A stretch of 55,312 bases of DNA, taken from NCBI GenBank assembly GCA_017406985.1, contig JAFQXL010000001.1:1-55312 (forward strand), read 5' to 3'. The stretch's first letter is position 1; each line of letters starts with the position of its first letter. Origin of the DNA: Candidatus Saccharimonadota bacterium (GTDB taxonomy: Bacteria > Patescibacteriota > Saccharimonadia > Saccharimonadales > Saccharimonadaceae). Shown piece by piece: positions 9,803 to 55,289 of this stretch. The position numbers and the translations under genes were made by a program. The notes under the pieces were generated by a model. The model was not told the DNA's origin, ran no database searches, and saw only the letters and a list, made by a program, of their open reading frames with translations.

Positions 9803-10396
9803 ATGGGAGAGTTAGTTAGAAAAGCTATTTTAGCTAGTTTATTGATTGGGCTTGGGAATTACGTTCTACTTAAAATCGGAACGCCGGTTGGACCGTTTTT
9901 ATTCTCGCTAGGACTACTGGCGGTTTGTTATATGGGGGCGAATTTATTTACGGGGAAATGTGGATTCTTATTTGAAGATAATATAAAGTTAACTGATCTG
10001 GGCATAATTTTAGCGGTAAATTTAATTTCGGGATATCTACTGGGCGCGATTTTCGGGCTAGCGGACGCGGATTTAGTTTCGGTGGCGACTTCGAAAATCT
10101 CTGGCTGGGAATTTTCGTTTCCGTTTTTAGTCAAGGCAGTTTTATGTGGAGTCGTGATGTTTGTTGCGGTCTATATTTATCGAAAGGGAAGTCCGTTCGG
10201 GGTCTTAATCGGAGTTCCGCTTTTTATCTTCGCGGGGTTTCAACACTGTATTGCTAATGTAATTACGATGGGAGTAGCTCTTAGCTTTGACTGGTCGATT
10301 TTTCTCGCAGTAGTAGGGAACTTTGTCGGTTCGATTTTAGCGTGGTGGCTGTTTAGGTCGAACAGATGTGTAAAAACTGAACAAAAGAGGTTATAA
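9803..10396 (+). CDS. Formate/nitrite transporter (FNT) family channel, short form
   Basis: The 197-aa protein shows FNT signatures: GANLFTGKCGF in the first half and FAGFQHCIANV in the second, the latter holding the central His. FNT pentamers pass small monovalent anions such as formate, nitrite, lactate or hydrosulfide. It is shorter than typical FocA (about 280 aa), with short loops and about six helices. It starts 8 bases after pyrG with AGGAG upstream, so the two are cotranscribed. Substrate unknown. Confidence 0.8.
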   Translation: MGELVRKAILASLLIGLGNYVLLKIGTPVGPFLFSLGLLAVCYMGANLFTGKCGFLFEDNIKLTDLGIILAVNLISGYLLGAIFGLADADLVSVATSKISGWEFSFPFLVKAVLCGVVMFVAVYIYRKGSPFGVLIGVPLFIFAGFQHCIANVITMGVALSFDWSIFLAVVGNFVGSILAWWLFRSNRCVKTEQKRL

Positions 10397-38985: not shown

Positions 38986-38991
38986 TAGAGG

Positions 38992-39322
38992 TAGCTCAAA
39001 AGACAATCGCTTGTTTTCAAGAGGAAAGTCCGGGCAACATAGGATAAGGTAGTCGCTAACGGCGACCGCGCGTAAGCGTAGGGAAAGTACCACAGAGACT
39101 ATACAACCTTCGGGTTAAAGGTGAAAAGAGTAAGGTAAGAGCTTACAGCGTCTTATGGCGACATAGGACGGAGGCAAACCCTACCTGTTGCAAGGAGTGC
39201 TAGATACGCCTATCCGGCGATGCACGCTCACCGCTAAAGCCGTTCGGCAACGAACGGATTAGATAGATGATTGTCGGTTTATCTCCCGAGATAAATTACA
39301 GAACCCGGCTTACTTTGAGCTA
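38992..39322 (+). ncRNA. rnpB: RNase P RNA (class A)
   Basis: The conserved blocks are in order: GAGGAAAGTCCGGGC, the AAGGTGAAAAGAGTAAGGTAAGAGC loop region, GGCAAACCCTACC and ACAGAACCCGGCTTA. The terminal helix P1 pairs AGCTCAAAAG with CTTTGAGCT. The -10 box TATAAT (38981-38986) contains the TAA stop of the upstream gene. RNase P RNA trims tRNA 5' ends. Confidence 0.95.
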
Positions 39323-39335
39323 AAATTATTGCTAA

Positions 39336-42959: not shown

Positions 42960-43323
42960 GGGGCTGACAAAGCTTAGACGGTTTATTAACAGATATCAAG
43001 CACGACGATTGATACCGTAAGTATTGAATAAATGAAGAAAAAACTTCGAAACATGTGCTTTATGCACCTGTTTATGCCTAGTATTATAATTTTTTAGGCT
43101 GGTTTAGAGGTCGAGTTTCCATAGAACTCTAAATTATCATAAACTTATGGGAATGGGATTTGCCTTTTGACAGGGGTAGATTCGAGATCTAGTCATGGCG
43201 TCTTTTAGGTTTCGTTCTTTGCCGCCTATCTGATAAGCCAAGAATAAAAACAGAGAACTATGCGTGTAGAATGATATCGACTTAATCTATCGGACGGGGA
43301 GGCAGTATCCCCCAGCTCCACCA
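42960..43323 (+). ncRNA. ssrA: tmRNA
   Basis: The 364-nt gene has tRNA-like ends GGGGCTG and CAGCTCC plus encoded ACCA, and the 5' block TTAGACGG. A probable first pseudoknot stem is TATCAA/TTGATA (42994-43014). The most likely tag frame ends at TAG 43079-43081 and reads NEEKTSKHVLYAPVYA, ending in the usual small hydrophobic residues; the resume codon is uncertain. The T stem GGGGA/TCCCC encloses GGCAGTA rather than TTCGANN. A TAAAAT box (42943-42948) precedes it. It rescues stalled ribosomes. Confidence 0.88.
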
Positions 43324-43464: not shown

Positions 43465-43563
43465 ACGGAAAATTATTCAAAATTTCTGTGGAAAAGTGGG
43501 GTAAAAATTGTACAAAAATTATTCAAAAAATGTATTGACATAAGCATTTTAATGCGATATTAT
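43465..43563 (+). promoter_or_regulatory. Strong promoter with upstream repeats for a stable RNA
   Basis: CGGAAAATTATTCAAAA (43465-43481), TACAAAAATTATTCAAAAAA, then TTGACA (43535-43540), a 17-base spacer starting TAAGCATTTT and TATTAT (43558-43563). The arrangement repeats that seen before 37308. Confidence 0.75.
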
Positions 43564-43569
43564 AGAGGT

Positions 43570-43822
43570 AGCTTCTGAATAAAAAAAGTATTCAGGAGGT
43601 AAAAAACAAAAATAGCCAAAATAACTCCACACTCTACGGATTAAGTCAGTTTTCCTCGCAGTTTAGCTGACTTAATCCAACTAAGAATAAACAAAAACGT
43701 TAAAGAAAAATTAAAAATCGAAACGTTAAAAACAAATCGAAAATTAAAACTTTGTAAAAAGCAACAAAAAACGCAAACTGAAATTTTAAAATGGCGCGGC
43801 TCGGAAAGAGTCGCGTTTTTTG
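43570..43822 (+). ncRNA. Probable small RNA with strong promoter and terminator
   Basis: About 250 nt between the strong promoter and the terminator CGCGGCTC-GGAAA-GAGTCGCG-TTTTTT (43795-43822). It has hairpins CTGAATA/TATTCAG (43575-43595) and a perfect 12-bp stem GGATTAAGTCAG/CTGACTTAATCC (43638-43678), then an A-rich tail. No ORF of note is present. A partial copy of its first half lies at 43867-43937. The family is unknown. Confidence 0.6.
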
Positions 43823-43866: not shown

Positions 43867-43937
43867 TATTCAGGAGGCAAAAACAAAAATAGCCAAAAAA
43901 CTTTTCACTCTACGGATTAAGTCAGTTTTCCCCACAG
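43867..43937 (+). repeat. Degenerate partial copy of the upstream small RNA
   Basis: About 70 bases repeat 43589-43661 with most positions matching (TATTCAGGAGG, ACAAAAATAGCC, CTCTACGGATTAAGTCAG). The 3' arm of the 12-bp stem is missing and is replaced by a G-rich sequence. There is no strong promoter directly before it. Confidence 0.75.
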
Positions 43938-44005
43938 AGGGGAGAGGGGGTAGCCGTTCTCGCAGAGGGGGGGGGTAGTTATCATCGTAGCTAGTATAAA
44001 ACGTT

Positions 44006-44119
44006 GTGAAAAAGACAACAAATGTGTTCAACGAAATGAACAGAGGTAGAGCGGGTAATGTTGTAAAAAATACTGTAAAAAATGTATTCAAAAATGCTGA
44101 AAAACTATTGCAATTTTAA
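44006..44119 (+). CDS. Possible small basic peptide (37 aa)
   Basis: The frame from GTG 44006 to TAA 44119 encodes a Lys/Asn/Val-rich, amphipathic peptide with NVVKNTVKNVFKNAEKLL. TATAAA (43995-44000) lies 5 bases before the GTG, a spacing like the leaderless genes here, but no -35 is seen and an internal ATG (44036) is an alternative. The 3' end overlaps the promoter of the large RNA, which weakens the case. Confidence 0.25.
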   Translation: MKKTTNVFNEMNRGRAGNVVKNTVKNVFKNAEKLLQF

Positions 44120-44136
44120 AACGTTTATGGTAATAT
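44108..44136 (+). promoter_or_regulatory. Promoter of the large structured RNA
   Basis: TTGCAA (44108-44113), 17 bases, then TAATAT (44131-44136). Confidence 0.6.
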
Positions 44137-44142
44137 GAAATT

Positions 44143-44640
44143 AGTCGAAAGACAAAAATAAAAACGCGAAACTGTGTGGAACAGAAAAATAAACGCGAAG
44201 AGCAAATTAAAAAAATCAAGATCCTGCGCGAGCAGGTGAGAAGGGAAACTTAGCGAGCCTATAGGTAGTTCCTAGCCATAAATTACACTTCTAGGAAAAA
44301 CTAGAAAGACTAGAAATTACCTAAAGCTCCGCTAAAGCGTTTAACCTATGTAAAACAGACTAACCTCGTTTTAGAGTCCAACCTAAAACAAGGGAAGCTC
44401 AAACGAGCAACAGTATGTTAAACAGGAGGTTAAACTGAAGAGCGTTGAGCGCGTTTTAAACTTCTTTATTAGCACCTTTTAAAAAATAGAATAAAGAAGG
44501 GAAAAACAAGGACATCTGCCCCTCCTTGCGAGGAGCGGTCTCAGCTAAGACGGTGAGAGTTGCGGCTTATAGTAATGTTTTAGCGCCGGATAACTCCCCG
44601 TCCTAGCTCCCTAATTAACTTATATGACCTATTTCTTGTA
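44143..44640 (+). ncRNA. Large multi-helix RNA candidate, unassigned
   Basis: About 500 nt without coding potential contain many good stems in order. CCTGC-GCGA-GCAGG (44223-44236) is a GNRA hairpin. A domain closed by GGTAGTT/AATTACC (44264-44321) holds CCTAG/CTAGG and CTAG-AAAGA-CTAG. A long-range helix GTTTAACC/GGTTAAAC (44339-44435) encloses CCTCGTTTTAG/CTAAAACAAGG and GCTC-AAAC-GAGC. CTTCTTTATT/AATAAAGAAG (44461-44499), CTCC/GGAG and TCTCA/TGAGA (to 44558) follow. The 3' end is uncertain. It does not show the hallmarks of tmRNA, RNase P RNA or rRNA. It may be a new or rare large ncRNA class. Confidence 0.6.
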
Positions 44641-44658
44641 ATAGAGGGAGAGTAATAA

Positions 44659-44700
44659 ATGAAAAGAGCACGATTTTCTCGCAGTTTTCGTGGCTCATAA
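44659..44700 (+). CDS. Possible 13-aa leader peptide
   Basis: ATG 44659 to TAA 44700 reads MKRARFSRSFRGS, preceded by GAGGGAGAG at good distance. The same bases can form a stem GAGC.ACGA/TCGTGGCTC, so the sequence may instead be the terminator of the large RNA. The next gene's -10 box follows at 44708. Confidence 0.3.
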   Translation: MKRARFSRSFRGS

Positions 44701-44719
44701 AATGTGATACAATAAGGTT

Positions 44720-45070
44720 ATGCTTAACCGAGTTATCCTGTTTATATCACTTTTAGCTTCAGTAATTTTAGCATCTATGCTATTTTTCACAACTCCAGCC
44801 GACCTCGGTCCGCTGGGGATTTTTGTGTTTTTCGTGATGGTATATTTTGTCGTTCTCGGGATAACGACGTTTCTGACGAAAGTATTTGTTAGGTTTGTTT
44901 TTAGGAGAAAAACTTTACTCTGGAAAGATTATGCGGACGCGGCGGTTTTAGCGTTTTGGCCGGTTATGGTTCTAGTTTTTATCTCTGTTGGGACGTCGAA
45001 CATGGTCTTTAGTTTAATTGGAGCGACATTTTTCGTGGCTTTAAGTATGTTTTTAATCAAGAAAGTGTGA
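44720..45070 (+). CDS. Four-helix membrane protein of the VirB4-like operon
   Basis: The 116-aa protein has four hydrophobic segments (about 5-22, 28-52, 72-90, 94-113) and little else. TACAAT (44708-44713) lies 6 bases before the ATG. It precedes the acidic protein and the conjugation-type ATPase, so it may be a small inner-membrane component of that machine. No family is assigned. Confidence 0.7.
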   Translation: MLNRVILFISLLASVILASMLFFTTPADLGPLGIFVFFVMVYFVVLGITTFLTKVFVRFVFRRKTLLWKDYADAAVLAFWPVMVLVFISVGTSNMVFSLIGATFFVALSMFLIKKV

Positions 45071-45082
45071 TAAAATAAGCAT

Positions 45083-45520
45083 ATGGATAATGGGAACGGA
45101 GGTCCGGAGAACAGAATAGCTCAAGGATTTGAGAATATTTCTGATTCGGTCGACTTTAACCCAGAGAGATTACAAAACCCGAATCAAAAAGAACAAGTCT
45201 ATCTCGATCCGTCGATGCTCGGGACGGCGACGGTAGAGGCGACACAATATGACGGAGACCTTAATCCGGCGCTTGGACAGGTCGTTTCGGAGGGGGAAGT
45301 CGGAATGAAGAGTCTTTCGGAAGATCAGATTTTAGCGACCGAAACAGGGGTAATGAAGTTTGAGAAAAACGGGGTAACGAAAGAGCAAGAAGAGAGACTA
45401 GATAATCTGAAAAAAGAACCTAACCTCTATCGACAGAGCGTAGAATTTATAAAAACGTCGAAACAGGCGTTATCCTCGAGTTTTTCGGATAGGGCGTATT
45501 TAGCGGGGGAAACGAAGTAA
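45083..45520 (+). CDS. Soluble acidic protein preceding the VirB4-like ATPase, unknown
   Basis: The 145-aa protein is polar, with a disordered-looking N-terminus rich in Asn, Gly, Glu and Pro and a helical C-terminus. TAAAAT (45071-45076) lies 6 bases before its ATG and abuts the TGA of the previous gene, so it can be transcribed alone. Its stop overlaps the ATPase start by one base, which implies coupling and a shared role. The family is unknown. Confidence 0.7.
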   Translation: MDNGNGGPENRIAQGFENISDSVDFNPERLQNPNQKEQVYLDPSMLGTATVEATQYDGDLNPALGQVVSEGEVGMKSLSEDQILATETGVMKFEKNGVTKEQEERLDNLKKEPNLYRQSVEFIKTSKQALSSSFSDRAYLAGETK

Positions 45521-48216
45521 TGGCGGGCTGGGTGGTGTTAATTTTAGTGCTCGCGGTAATTATAGGGGTAATTACGGTTATCGTTAAAAATCTTAACCAT
45601 AAGCGAAAACTAAAGGATTATGAGAGGCAGTTAAAACTAGTTCCGCTTTTAATCCATCTTCCGCCGTCGACTGACGATATTGAGGTAGGAGGAAGGGATG
45701 AGCGCGACGTAAACGAAGAAGCAATTTCGAGTGCGACAGTAATGTATTCGATTATCGCGTCGACTTTAAAGAAAAAAGGCTTCGATACGGCACTCTATGG
45801 GCAAAGATATTTCTCGCTCGACATTGTAACGGTCGAGGGGTTTGTAAAGTATTATGCGGTTGTTCCGGCGGTACTCGAAGAGACGATTAAACAGGCGATT
45901 GTTTCGAGTTATCCGACGGCGAGACTAGAGGAAGCAGACGAAGAGATTATCTTTAAAGACGGGATGACAGCGGAAAATATCGCCGGAGGGGAGTTTGAAC
46001 TTAAGAAAGAATTTGCTTATCCGATTTCGACTTATGAAGATAGTAAATGGGACGCGCAGACGGCGATTTTAAACGCATTCTCAAAGGTAAAACAGAGGGA
46101 AGGGATGGCGATTCAGATTTTATTCCGTCCGGCCGACCCGAAGTGGACGAAAAAAAGTGAACAATTAGCGGATAATATTAAAAATAATAGGACTTGGAAC
46201 GGTAGTAATTTACCGATGCGAATACTTCATTTATTCCTTGATGTAATTAAAGCTCCGTTTGAAGTTCCGAATGAACACAAATATGACGAAGTGAACAATT
46301 CTTTGTCACAGCCAAAACAAGAAGAAATTATGGCAATAGAGAACAAGGCGAAATATCCTGGGTTTGAGGTTTTAATTAGGGTAATTGCGGCGACAGATAC
46401 GAAACAGAGGTCGGAGGCTTTAATCGGGGGGATTGTCGCGTCGTTTTCGCAATTCGATTCACCGGCGTTTAACGGGTTTAAATATAATATATTAAAGAAA
46501 AGCGATCAGCTCGCTTCAGATTATATTTTTCATAATTTCCCGAGAAAAAATAAAAATTGTATCTTAAATACGATAGAACTTGCGTCGATCTTCCACCTTC
46601 CGAGCCAAGCTTCGATTCCGAGTTCGGGGGTCGAGAGGCAGATGACAAAACAAGTTGACGGGCCGGCAAAGCTCTCAACGGAAGGTGTTATTCTTGGAGT
46701 AAACGAATATCGAGGCGAGAAAAAACAGATTAGACTGGCGGAAAAAGACCGTAGGCGCCACACTTATATTATCGGTGCTACTGGTATGGGTAAATCGGTA
46801 CTTCTTAAAAATATCGCTTATCAAGATATGATGGACGGAAGAGGGTTCGCGTTTATCGACCCGCACGGAGATGTAACAGAGGAGCTACTCTCGATGGTTC
46901 CGCCAGATAGAATTGACGATGTAATCTATTTTGACCCGAGCGACCTCGAGAACCCGATTGGAATGAATATGTTTGAGTGTCAAACAGAAGAGCAGAAAGA
47001 TTTTATCGTTCAAGAGGGAATAAATATGCTTTATTCGCTTTATGACCCGGGGCATACGGGTATCTTTGGTCCTCGAGGGGAACAGATGTTCAGGAACGCG
47101 GCGTTACTTCTAATGGCAGACCCGAGAGGTGCGACCTTTATCGACGTTCCGAGGTGTTTTATCGATCCGGAGCTTGTAAAAGAGAAATTACAGTTCGTAA
47201 CAGATAAGAATGTCTATGACTATTGGACAAAAGAGTTCCCAGCGAGTCAAAAATCGAACGACGCGGGAGAGGTTGTAACTTGGTTTGCATCGAAATGGTC
47301 GCCGTTTATCTCGAATATGATGATGAAAAACGTGCTCGGACAGGTTAAATCGGGCTTTAATATTCGAGACGTGATGGACGGACAGAAGATTCTTCTCGTA
47401 AACCTCTCAAAGGGTAAACTCGGGGAATTAAACTCGAAACTGCTCGGTATGATTTTTGTAATGAAGTTTCAGAGTGCGGCAATGAGCCGAGTTGATACTC
47501 CAGAGGACGACCGTAAAGATTTCTGTCTCTTTGTCGACGAGTTCCAGAACTTCTCGACCGAGAGCTTTGAGTCAATTCTATCAGAGGCGAGGAAGTTCCG
47601 TCTTAATCTTGTGGTTGCAAACCAGTTTATGACACAGTTAACAGATAAGATTAGGGAAGGCGTCTTAGGTAACGTTGGTACGGTGATTGCGGGGCGCGTA
47701 GGCGTAACGGATGCGGAAATGCTTGAAAAGGTCTTTACGCCGACCTTTAAGGCGGAAGATTTACATAAACAGCCGAACTTCCATGCGATTACGACGGTAA
47801 TGATGTTCGATATGCCGACGGCGCCGTTTACAATGAACCTAATCCCGCCGATGGGAGAAGAAAAACCAGAGGTGTTCGAGAGTCTAAAGAAATATTCAGC
47901 GACGAAATATGGGCGACCACGAGCAGAGGTAGATAGAGAGATAAATGAGCGAATGACGCCGAAAAAGCCAAAGCCAAAGATGGACGAAGCTGAGGCGGCG
48001 AAAGCGATAGATGCGCTTTCTGGGAAGCCAAAAGAGCCAGTAAGAAGTACGGTAACGCCTCCAGAGGGGGAAGATTTAGTCGGGAACGTCGTAACGCCGG
48101 TAAAAAGAGAAAGTTATCTTGAGAAATGGAAAAAAGCGCCAGAAAAAGTTTCTAAAGAAGCTTCCGAGAAGAAAAATGACCACATGCAAGATGGCGACGT
48201 AATTAAATTGCGCTAA
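45520..48216 (+). CDS. Type IV secretion/conjugation ATPase (VirD4/TraD-VirB4-like)
   Basis: The 898-aa protein has an N-terminal membrane helix (residues about 4-24) and a large N-terminal domain of about 380 residues. A RecA-type motor follows, with Walker A GATGMGKSVLL (about residue 420), FIDPHGDV, YFDPSDLENPIGMN and Walker B CLFVDEFQNF. The TraD/TraG-like DNA-binding domain and SEARKFRLNLVVANQ are typical of conjugative coupling proteins. The C-terminal 100 residues are charged and Pro-rich. It probably pumps DNA or protein across the envelope. No relaxase or VirB channel genes are in the window. Confidence 0.85.
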   Translation: MAGWVVLILVLAVIIGVITVIVKNLNHKRKLKDYERQLKLVPLLIHLPPSTDDIEVGGRDERDVNEEAISSATVMYSIIASTLKKKGFDTALYGQRYFSLDIVTVEGFVKYYAVVPAVLEETIKQAIVSSYPTARLEEADEEIIFKDGMTAENIAGGEFELKKEFAYPISTYEDSKWDAQTAILNAFSKVKQREGMAIQILFRPADPKWTKKSEQLADNIKNNRTWNGSNLPMRILHLFLDVIKAPFEVPNEHKYDEVNNSLSQPKQEEIMAIENKAKYPGFEVLIRVIAATDTKQRSEALIGGIVASFSQFDSPAFNGFKYNILKKSDQLASDYIFHNFPRKNKNCILNTIELASIFHLPSQASIPSSGVERQMTKQVDGPAKLSTEGVILGVNEYRGEKKQIRLAEKDRRRHTYIIGATGMGKSVLLKNIAYQDMMDGRGFAFIDPHGDVTEELLSMVPPDRIDDVIYFDPSDLENPIGMNMFECQTEEQKDFIVQEGINMLYSLYDPGHTGIFGPRGEQMFRNAALLLMADPRGATFIDVPRCFIDPELVKEKLQFVTDKNVYDYWTKEFPASQKSNDAGEVVTWFASKWSPFISNMMMKNVLGQVKSGFNIRDVMDGQKILLVNLSKGKLGELNSKLLGMIFVMKFQSAAMSRVDTPEDDRKDFCLFVDEFQNFSTESFESILSEARKFRLNLVVANQFMTQLTDKIREGVLGNVGTVIAGRVGVTDAEMLEKVFTPTFKAEDLHKQPNFHAITTVMMFDMPTAPFTMNLIPPMGEEKPEVFESLKKYSATKYGRPRAEVDREINERMTPKKPKPKMDEAEAAKAIDALSGKPKEPVRSTVTPPEGEDLVGNVVTPVKRESYLEKWKKAPEKVSKEASEKKNDHMQDGDVIKLR

Positions 48217-54967: not shown

Positions 54968-55289
54968 AAATCTTTGAAAAAAGTCTTGACTTAATTTTAA
55001 AGATGGTATAAGATTAGAAGTATTGAAGACTGCGAGAGAAGTTATTTTAGTAGTCTTTCGACGCGCTTAAGGGTAGCGCGATAAAAATAATCAGAAGTTT
55101 TAACAATTCAGTTGTGCAATTATAATTGAAAATTTTTCAATTTCATCGTCAGTTTATTTATTTTAATTTGAGTTTTATTCTTTAGCTAACGCTAAAGATA
55201 CAGTTCTGCTCATTCTCGGAAAAGAAAATAAATTTTCTTTTCTCTCGAATGTTTGAACAGTCAAATTTTCTTGACTTCTTCGGGAGTCC
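54968..55289 (+). promoter_or_regulatory. 16S rRNA promoter and leader
   Basis: TTGACT (54986-54991) and TAAGAT (55009-55014) form a promoter with a 17-base spacer. The leader of about 270 nt has hairpins TTGAAAA/TTTTCAA (about 55126-55142), TTTAGC-TAAC-GCTAAA and a perfect 11-bp stem GAAAAGAAAAT/ATTTTCTTTTC (55219-55242). The last part is probably the 5' half of the rRNA processing stem. No ORF or tRNA is present. Confidence 0.7.

Follow-up and report, generated by a model that had tools for sequence, protein, structure and literature searches.

A structured RNA family found across an order of Saccharibacteria, with an expanded form in one genus

The window, i.e. the whole stretch of 55,312 nucleotides of Candidatus Saccharimonadota DNA analysed here, carries on its forward strand a structured RNA gene (44108-44650) without any match in Rfam. 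The tmRNA gene lies on one side of it and, on the other, an operon whose products are a membrane protein of 116 aa, a protein of 145 aa and a TrwB/TraG-like ATPase of 898 aa. The RNA belongs to an order-wide family that is, in the searches made here, restricted to Saccharibacteria and that is built on a covariation-supported core of a hairpin, a single strand and a rod with a G/GAU loop. The existence and the structure of this family are hardly in doubt. The window's copy would be an expanded, genus-specific form of what appears to be a single-copy housekeeping RNA of the whole order. An RNA present nearly once per genome across an order of ultrasmall epibionts and without Rfam relative amounts to a new RNA class; the set of housekeeping RNAs common to nearly every bacterium is small, and this one would add to it. 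These epibionts have minimal genomes and therefore few dispensable genes. The claim is moreover testable as cultured oral Saccharibacteria exist. The reference for novelty is Rfam 15 together with the open-access literature, a search of which returned no published description of the RNA.

The first-pass annotation had described positions 44143-44640 as non-coding DNA behind a good promoter, folding into a large and possibly new or rare RNA. No open reading frame of 50 aa or more is indeed found within 44091-44720. The promoter agrees with this first description, with the -35 box TTGCAA at 44108-44113, a 17-nt spacer and the -10 box TAATAT at 44131-44136, as read from the sequence; relatives have in common an extended -10 (TTGAWT-17-TGCTAATAT). 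The limits of the element need only be widened slightly, to include the promoter from 44108 on one side and a 3' end near 44650 on the other. The minimum free energy of 44143-44640 is -137.9 kcal/mol versus -108.4 kcal/mol for shuffled sequences (z = -5.2). The + strand is assigned as the RNA because each of the three alignments contains more GU pairs than AC mismatches (129 vs 36, 91 vs 40 and 14 vs 8). Expression of the RNA is predicted from the promoters alone.

The transcript starts with a hairpin, GUC-GAAA-GAC (44144-44153, this and all following parts on the + strand), kept as GTCGARA(T)GAC in most copies of the genus. It is followed by an A-rich leader (44154-44248), in which most relatives have a Shine-Dalgarno sequence and an ORF of 2-13 codons. 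The window shows no ATG mini-ORF there; a GNRA hairpin, CCUGC-GCGA-GCAGG, occupies the place (44223-44236), which makes two GNRA hairpins where the first-pass annotation had mentioned one. The closing helix H1 (10 bp, 44249-44258 / 44326-44336) is paired in 83% of cells, a count in which some alignment rows are shifted by one, and two of its pairs change on both sides. Nested in it, the 12-bp helix H2 (44263-44274 / 44311-44322) includes the closed domain GGTAGTT/AATTACC noticed at first pass. It is 98.5% paired among 62 sequences, with both-sided changes at 5 of the 12 pairs (GC/CG, AU/UA and AU/GC), for example GGUAA/UUACC in genus g1 vs GCUUA/UAAGC in genus g32. H2 opens on a near-invariant loop GCCAUAAAUUACA (44275-44287) kept across relatives, and in the window's copy an additional hairpin is found within the H2 loop. 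A pseudoknot between this loop and UGUGGC of the rod described below was considered and rejected: the loop is invariant and the rod alternates between GUGG and GCGG without matching change.

An insert domain proper to the window's sub-clade and absent in most of the genus comes next (44339-44435), closed by the long-range 8-bp helix GTTTAACC (44339-44346) / GGTTAAAC (44428-44435) already proposed at first pass. This helix reads GTTTGATA/TATCAAAC in L002 and GTTTGATAA/TTATCAAAC in L054 and is reduced in L120 to an 8-bp hairpin capped by GAAA; it therefore covaries. Further 3', a short hairpin GCGU-UGA-GCGC (44442-44452) is 92% paired with almost no variation. Helix H3 (44453-44457 / 44503-44507) surrounds H4 (44462-44469 / 44491-44498), and all 13 of their pairs change on both sides. 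The H5 hairpin combines GAC 44511-44513 / GUC 44538-44540 with 44518-44524 / 44530-44536; it is 99% paired, 6 of its 10 pairs change on both sides, and it corresponds to CGCUC..GAGCG of the compact relatives presented below. The rod H6 (44543-44608) is composed of an outer helix 44543-44553 / 44598-44608 and of the segments 44557-44561 / 44592-44596 and 44563-44566 / 44585-44588. It is 97% paired, with both-sided changes at 7 of the 9 counted pairs, and its internal loop, G44562 opposite G44589, A44590 and U44591, is identical in the compact RNA. A putative last helix, CUCCC 44607-44611 / GGGAG 44646-44650, was read off alignments; it takes the form CYYCCA..UGGGGG in relatives and is likely the 3' boundary of the RNA. 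The sequence ACTTGGGGG preceding the operon was also considered as the operon's -35 box, for which the 17-nt spacing fits some species and not others, and it was kept as part of the 3' helix of the RNA.

Taken by domain, 91.5% of cells are paired and 7 of 22 pairs change on both sides in the 5' domain (H1-H2, 62 sequences); in the 3' half (50 sequences) 94% of cells are paired and both-sided changes affect 26 of 36 pairs. These paired percentages are inflated since the sequences counted also served to derive the structures. The covariation score of the 3' half reaches 0.49, compared with 0.22 in shuffles, which ignore relatedness, and at most 0.13 in slid controls. The many different pair types found at single positions are stronger evidence than the percentages. 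A fortuitous structure in an AT-rich spacer, or the remains of a degraded gene, would agree with the A-rich and non-coding nature of the region but not with compensatory changes far above the slid and shuffled controls, nor with conservation over an order and the absence of any protein remnant; its probability is negligible.

The RNA occupies a constant genomic place. A DNA search matched 34 of 60 related genomes, mostly of the same genus. The 116-aa gene was present at the first 30 loci. At nearly all of them the sequence covered also included yifB/comM, the tmRNA gene and the ATPase gene, in the order yifB - tmRNA - RNA - 116-aa gene - ATPase. The pattern GGTAATTTCTAGCCATAAATTACA, with up to 3 mismatches, was found in 103 of 393 genomes of the order, all of the window's family (genera g1, g32 and g63), while its reversed control gave zero matches. 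In 108 of 109 distinct copies the 116-aa gene lies downstream on the same strand. Conserved location together with compensatory changes, which the first-pass annotation had named as support for its candidate, is thus what the relatives display. A covariance model of H1-H2 (R1) matched 111 of the 393 genomes, weak matches in g42, g52 and g53 included, and with laxer filters also g30 and g38. These weak matches are regarded as real because they sit at the same syntenic place; synteny is lacking for those in L127 and L129, which were taken as chance. The neighbouring tmRNA gene shares the strand of the RNA in 67 cases and is inverted in 30, the flanking genes keeping their orientation. Genome G221 seemingly has two copies of the RNA (contigs C5 and C17), of which the C5 copy also precedes the 116-aa gene; the second copy may come from another strain in the bin.

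For each of the other families, the region preceding the ATPase operon was inspected in a single genome, and a compact form of the RNA was recovered at this syntenic place in 27 of the 30 families examined. It comprises a promoter (TTGAC[AT]-17-TAnnnT in 25 of 27), a GUAAG..CUUAC hairpin around AAAACAAAAAC, CGCUC-loop-GAGCGGUCAGUC with a near-invariant GAGCGGUCAGUC, and a rod GGACGGUAAGCGCU..AGCGGAUUUACCGUCC in which 7 of 9 outer pairs change on both sides and the internal loop opposes one G to GAU. A match to the corresponding covariance model was obtained in 162 of the 295 genomes searched within the order; they belong to 32 families, and nearly all of them have a single match. The first-pass proposal of a new or rare RNA holds for its first term, as no Rfam family accounts for the element, and fails for the second, the compact relative being present nearly once per genome in most of the order. 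Genus g40, of the window's own family, matched the compact model with an E-value of 1.5e-17; the score of the window's copy is weak, at 12.8 bits (E 0.017 in 46 kb). The proposed link between the window's RNA and the compact RNA rests on place, order of the parts, the shared G/GAU loop and bridge forms, namely L182 (g38) and L181 (g30), where the H1-H2 domain is found together with GAGCGGUCAGU. L197, L199 and L203, which have GAGCGGUCAGUC at the same syntenic place, count among the bridge forms as well, as does g40.

Among 380 genomes of the phylum, strong matches to the compact model were confined to the order, plus one partial match in the same class (L191, E 2e-7); the latter sequence looks related to the compact RNA, although its neighbourhood differs. 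Weak matches in L192-L196, L198, L200-L202 and L204 have no syntenic neighbours and were attributed to chance. An exact two-block pattern searched in 84,980 species genomes was found in 34 stretches. Those with a name belong without exception to Saccharibacteria; the remaining ones come from bins titled only 'bacterium' or 'Patescibacteria group bacterium'.

No degraded gene matches the element, and the comparison with Rfam that had been proposed at first pass gave no known family: at the gathering threshold, none of 4227 families matches the element or its relatives. The same search located tmRNA (42960-43323) and RNase P RNA (38991-39327) in the window, both outside the element as previously reported. 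Sub-threshold matches to STnc250 (E 0.012, at the neighbouring RNA) and to miRNA families were set aside as chance or terminator-like. ARAGORN reported nothing at the element, a program that also misses the real tmRNA. The element could still be a very divergent version of a known housekeeping RNA (6S, SRP RNA, tmRNA or RNase P). The slot of SRP RNA is seemingly open, since RF00169 finds none in 16 genomes (0/16), and 6S RNA is often hard to detect. However, RNase P and tmRNA have their own genes in the window, and no 6S bubble, SRP GGAA/AGCAGC or tRNA-like domain is seen in the element. Furthermore, no SRP RNA is expected where the Ffh M-domain (PF02978) is missing, as in all eight genomes searched (0/8 vs 14/14 controls). 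A divergent known RNA is for these reasons a very improbable identity.

The 6S RNA model RF00013 found nothing in the window's genome and had no match in 13 of 16 genomes. In three genomes sub-threshold 6S-like matches were observed (L239, L240 and L241, families f31 and f19), at separate places some 3-5 kb from the compact RNA. A 6S identity was consequently rejected for the RNA's place. The RNA resembles 6S RNA (RF00013) by its single copy, its putative independent transcription and the similar size of its compact form, and differs from it by the lack of a long duplex with a central bubble. With SRP RNA (RF00169) it has in common a rod with conserved asymmetric internal loops and a GGUCAG sequence, but it contains neither the GGAA tetraloop nor the AGCAGC motif and gives no model match. 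The eight genomes without Ffh M-domain are G000, G091, G168, G185, G050, G065, G040 and G071, and a signal recognition particle seems to be missing from Saccharibacteria, all or most controls being positive in the protein and RNA searches; an SRP RNA identity was rejected on both grounds, model and protein. Like tmRNA (RF00023), its neighbour in the window's family, the RNA associates a structured molecule with a short reading frame, but tmRNA has a separate gene, a tRNA-like domain is absent from the element, and in the relatives the reading frame comes with a Shine-Dalgarno sequence and a start codon of its own. GOLLD, ROOL, OLE and HEARO are large structured RNAs of unknown function. They are likewise large, complex, supported by covariation and limited to certain groups, whereas the element has no Rfam match, a chromosomal housekeeping-like location and a single copy.

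No target or partner of the RNA was found. An antisense target of the invariant loop was rejected: across 40 genomes of the genus, the loop's complement TGTAATTTATGGC is met with essentially only on the RNA's own opposite strand. Complements of the single-stranded segment, TTTGACCGC, GACTGACC and TGACTGAC, are absent from the window.

The constant association with one operon raises the question of whether the RNA is a gene or a leader. The operon (44720-48216, + strand) is a conserved neighbour across relatives; its 898-aa protein is a type IV coupling-protein-like ATPase (TrwB/TraG, Pfam PF10412). A long cis-acting leader would be the 5' UTR of this membrane protein / TraG-like ATPase operon, attenuator or riboswitch-like, with pausing on the mini-ORF deciding whether transcription or translation continues. 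It would explain why the RNA adjoins the same operon throughout the order, why the two keep a common strand in 108 of 109 loci although the tmRNA gene next to them changes orientation, why a leader-peptide-like ORF abuts a helix, and why some compact forms have terminators between the RNA and the operon (intrinsic terminators follow the compact RNA in 7 of 27 cases vs 0.3 expected). Nevertheless, the operon appears to have its own promoter, an extended -10 TGTGATACAAT (44703-44713) right before the start codon at 44720, nearly leaderless (44703-44722) and conforming to the consensus of relatives. TGnTAnAAT is found within 45 nt of the operon start in 107 of 108 copies, for a background of 0.04 per copy, the call being a consensus match and not a mapped start site. 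In the genus a clear terminator after the rod is scarce (5 of 105), which counts against an attenuator as well as against an independent gene. As for an expression platform (a terminator or a switch sequestering the Shine-Dalgarno sequence), terminators follow part of the copies, as counted above, and no switch common to relatives was found. No alternative pairing with the operon start was seen. An order-wide, near-invariant unpaired segment would also be unusual for an attenuator, and yifB is likewise a conserved neighbour, so that synteny alone does not imply action in cis. The RNA is on balance rather likely to be independent of the operon, and a cis-acting leader is a serious but fairly unlikely explanation.

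The mini-ORF of the relatives deserves a separate treatment. In 71 of 83 copies of the genus, a Shine-Dalgarno sequence and an ATG ORF of 2-13 codons ending before H1 were found, vs 5.4 expected from shuffles. In about half of them, a distance of exactly 17 nt separates the stop from H2, which places the stop at the foot of H1. In the reading frame, Lys and Arg account for 55% of the residues and Pro for 11%; the two alternative frames give 29% and 23% for the former and 2% and 1% for the latter. Of the 71 ORFs, 35 end in Pro, 19 in Lys and 14 in Thr. The forms coding for MKYK differ mainly at wobble positions, and the shortest ORF is ATG AAG TAA (L106). Start, stop and Shine-Dalgarno sequence above chance together with residue selection therefore characterize the genus but not the window's own copy, where no ATG mini-ORF is present and a possible GTG ORF has no Shine-Dalgarno sequence and is not kept in L059. 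The mini-ORF is also absent in g32, in the nearest relatives of the window and in the compact forms. It would thus be a genus-level addition, and it is not essential to the core function because it is missing in these groups.

Leader-peptide attenuators and ribosome-arrest leaders are exemplified by TnaC, Erm and the amino-acid leaders. They similarly have a short ORF with selected codons ending beside a helix, and a C-terminal Pro that can slow termination; here, in contrast, about 350 nt of conserved structure take the place of a terminator switch, a separate putative promoter precedes the next gene and related species lack the ORF. The micro-peptide might itself be the product of a small mRNA with a structured 3' UTR. 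The basic composition in frame and the mainly synonymous variation of MKYK point in that direction, but ORFs of down to two codons, sequences and lengths that differ between related species, and a structure kept everywhere, including where the ORF is absent (g32, window and compact forms), make it improbable. One article links a C-terminal Pro, and Thr in some contexts, to slow termination and SsrA tagging (PMC7246954, citing Hayes 2002); the same article found that a C-terminal Pro or Thr had no effect on expression in Mycoplasma (PMC7246954).

The preferred reading, to which we give slightly better than even chances, is that of an independently transcribed, trans-acting housekeeping RNA whose folding would be coupled to translation in most of the genus; its biochemical function is deduced from sequence comparison. 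The RNA would act in trans and would probably be one component of a ribonucleoprotein. The hairpin of the conserved core exposes a single strand, which reads GGUCAGUCA in most families and GGUCAAA in most of the genus, beside the G/GAU rod; this strand and the invariant internal loop resemble a site of contact with a protein or the ribosome. The window's genus and the nearest genera would have gained a second 5' module (H1-H2, loop GCCAUAAAUUACA). In most species of the genus, a ribosome would load on the A-rich leader, translate 2-13 mostly basic codons and pause at a Pro-, Thr- or Lys-stop abutting H1. With its 5' strand occupied by the paused ribosome, H1 should be unable to form during translation, and vice versa, so that the fold would be coupled to ribosome activity. 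The window's sub-clade has a GNRA hairpin in place of the mini-ORF. A translated mini-ORF beside the fold provides a concrete way to approach the possible control of an RNA machine by translation. A bolder version, clearly speculative and rather improbable, holds that a near-universal Saccharibacteria housekeeping RNA working at the ribosome was turned in one genus into a ribosome-sensing machine, in which the paused terminating ribosome of the 2-13 codon ORF holds the entry helix open. In this version the RNA could serve a lineage-specific ribonucleoprotein in organisms where SRP RNA and the Ffh M-domain were not found.

Other features were observed in the vicinity. A second conserved small RNA candidate is found at 43535-43817 of the window, with a promoter TTGACA-17-TATTAT, a hairpin TTCTGAAT..ATTCAGGA, a single strand AGCCAAAATAACTCCACACTCTAC containing an anti-Shine-Dalgarno-like CTCC, a hairpin loop TTTTCCTCGCAGT and a terminator. 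At least 74 of 109 relatives have its motif in the neighbourhood of the tmRNA gene, on one strand or the other. The spacer between the tmRNA gene and the RNA contains a partial duplication, ATTCAGGAGG..CAAAAATAGCCAAAA..ACTCTACGGATTAAGTCAGTTTTCC, at 43585-43680 and 43869-43970. Finally, the loop motif CTCGCAG occurs in hairpins and terminators at 10304, 43655, 43959 and 44678 (+) and at 55030 (-), as well as in relatives, as if terminator loops shared this conserved sequence.
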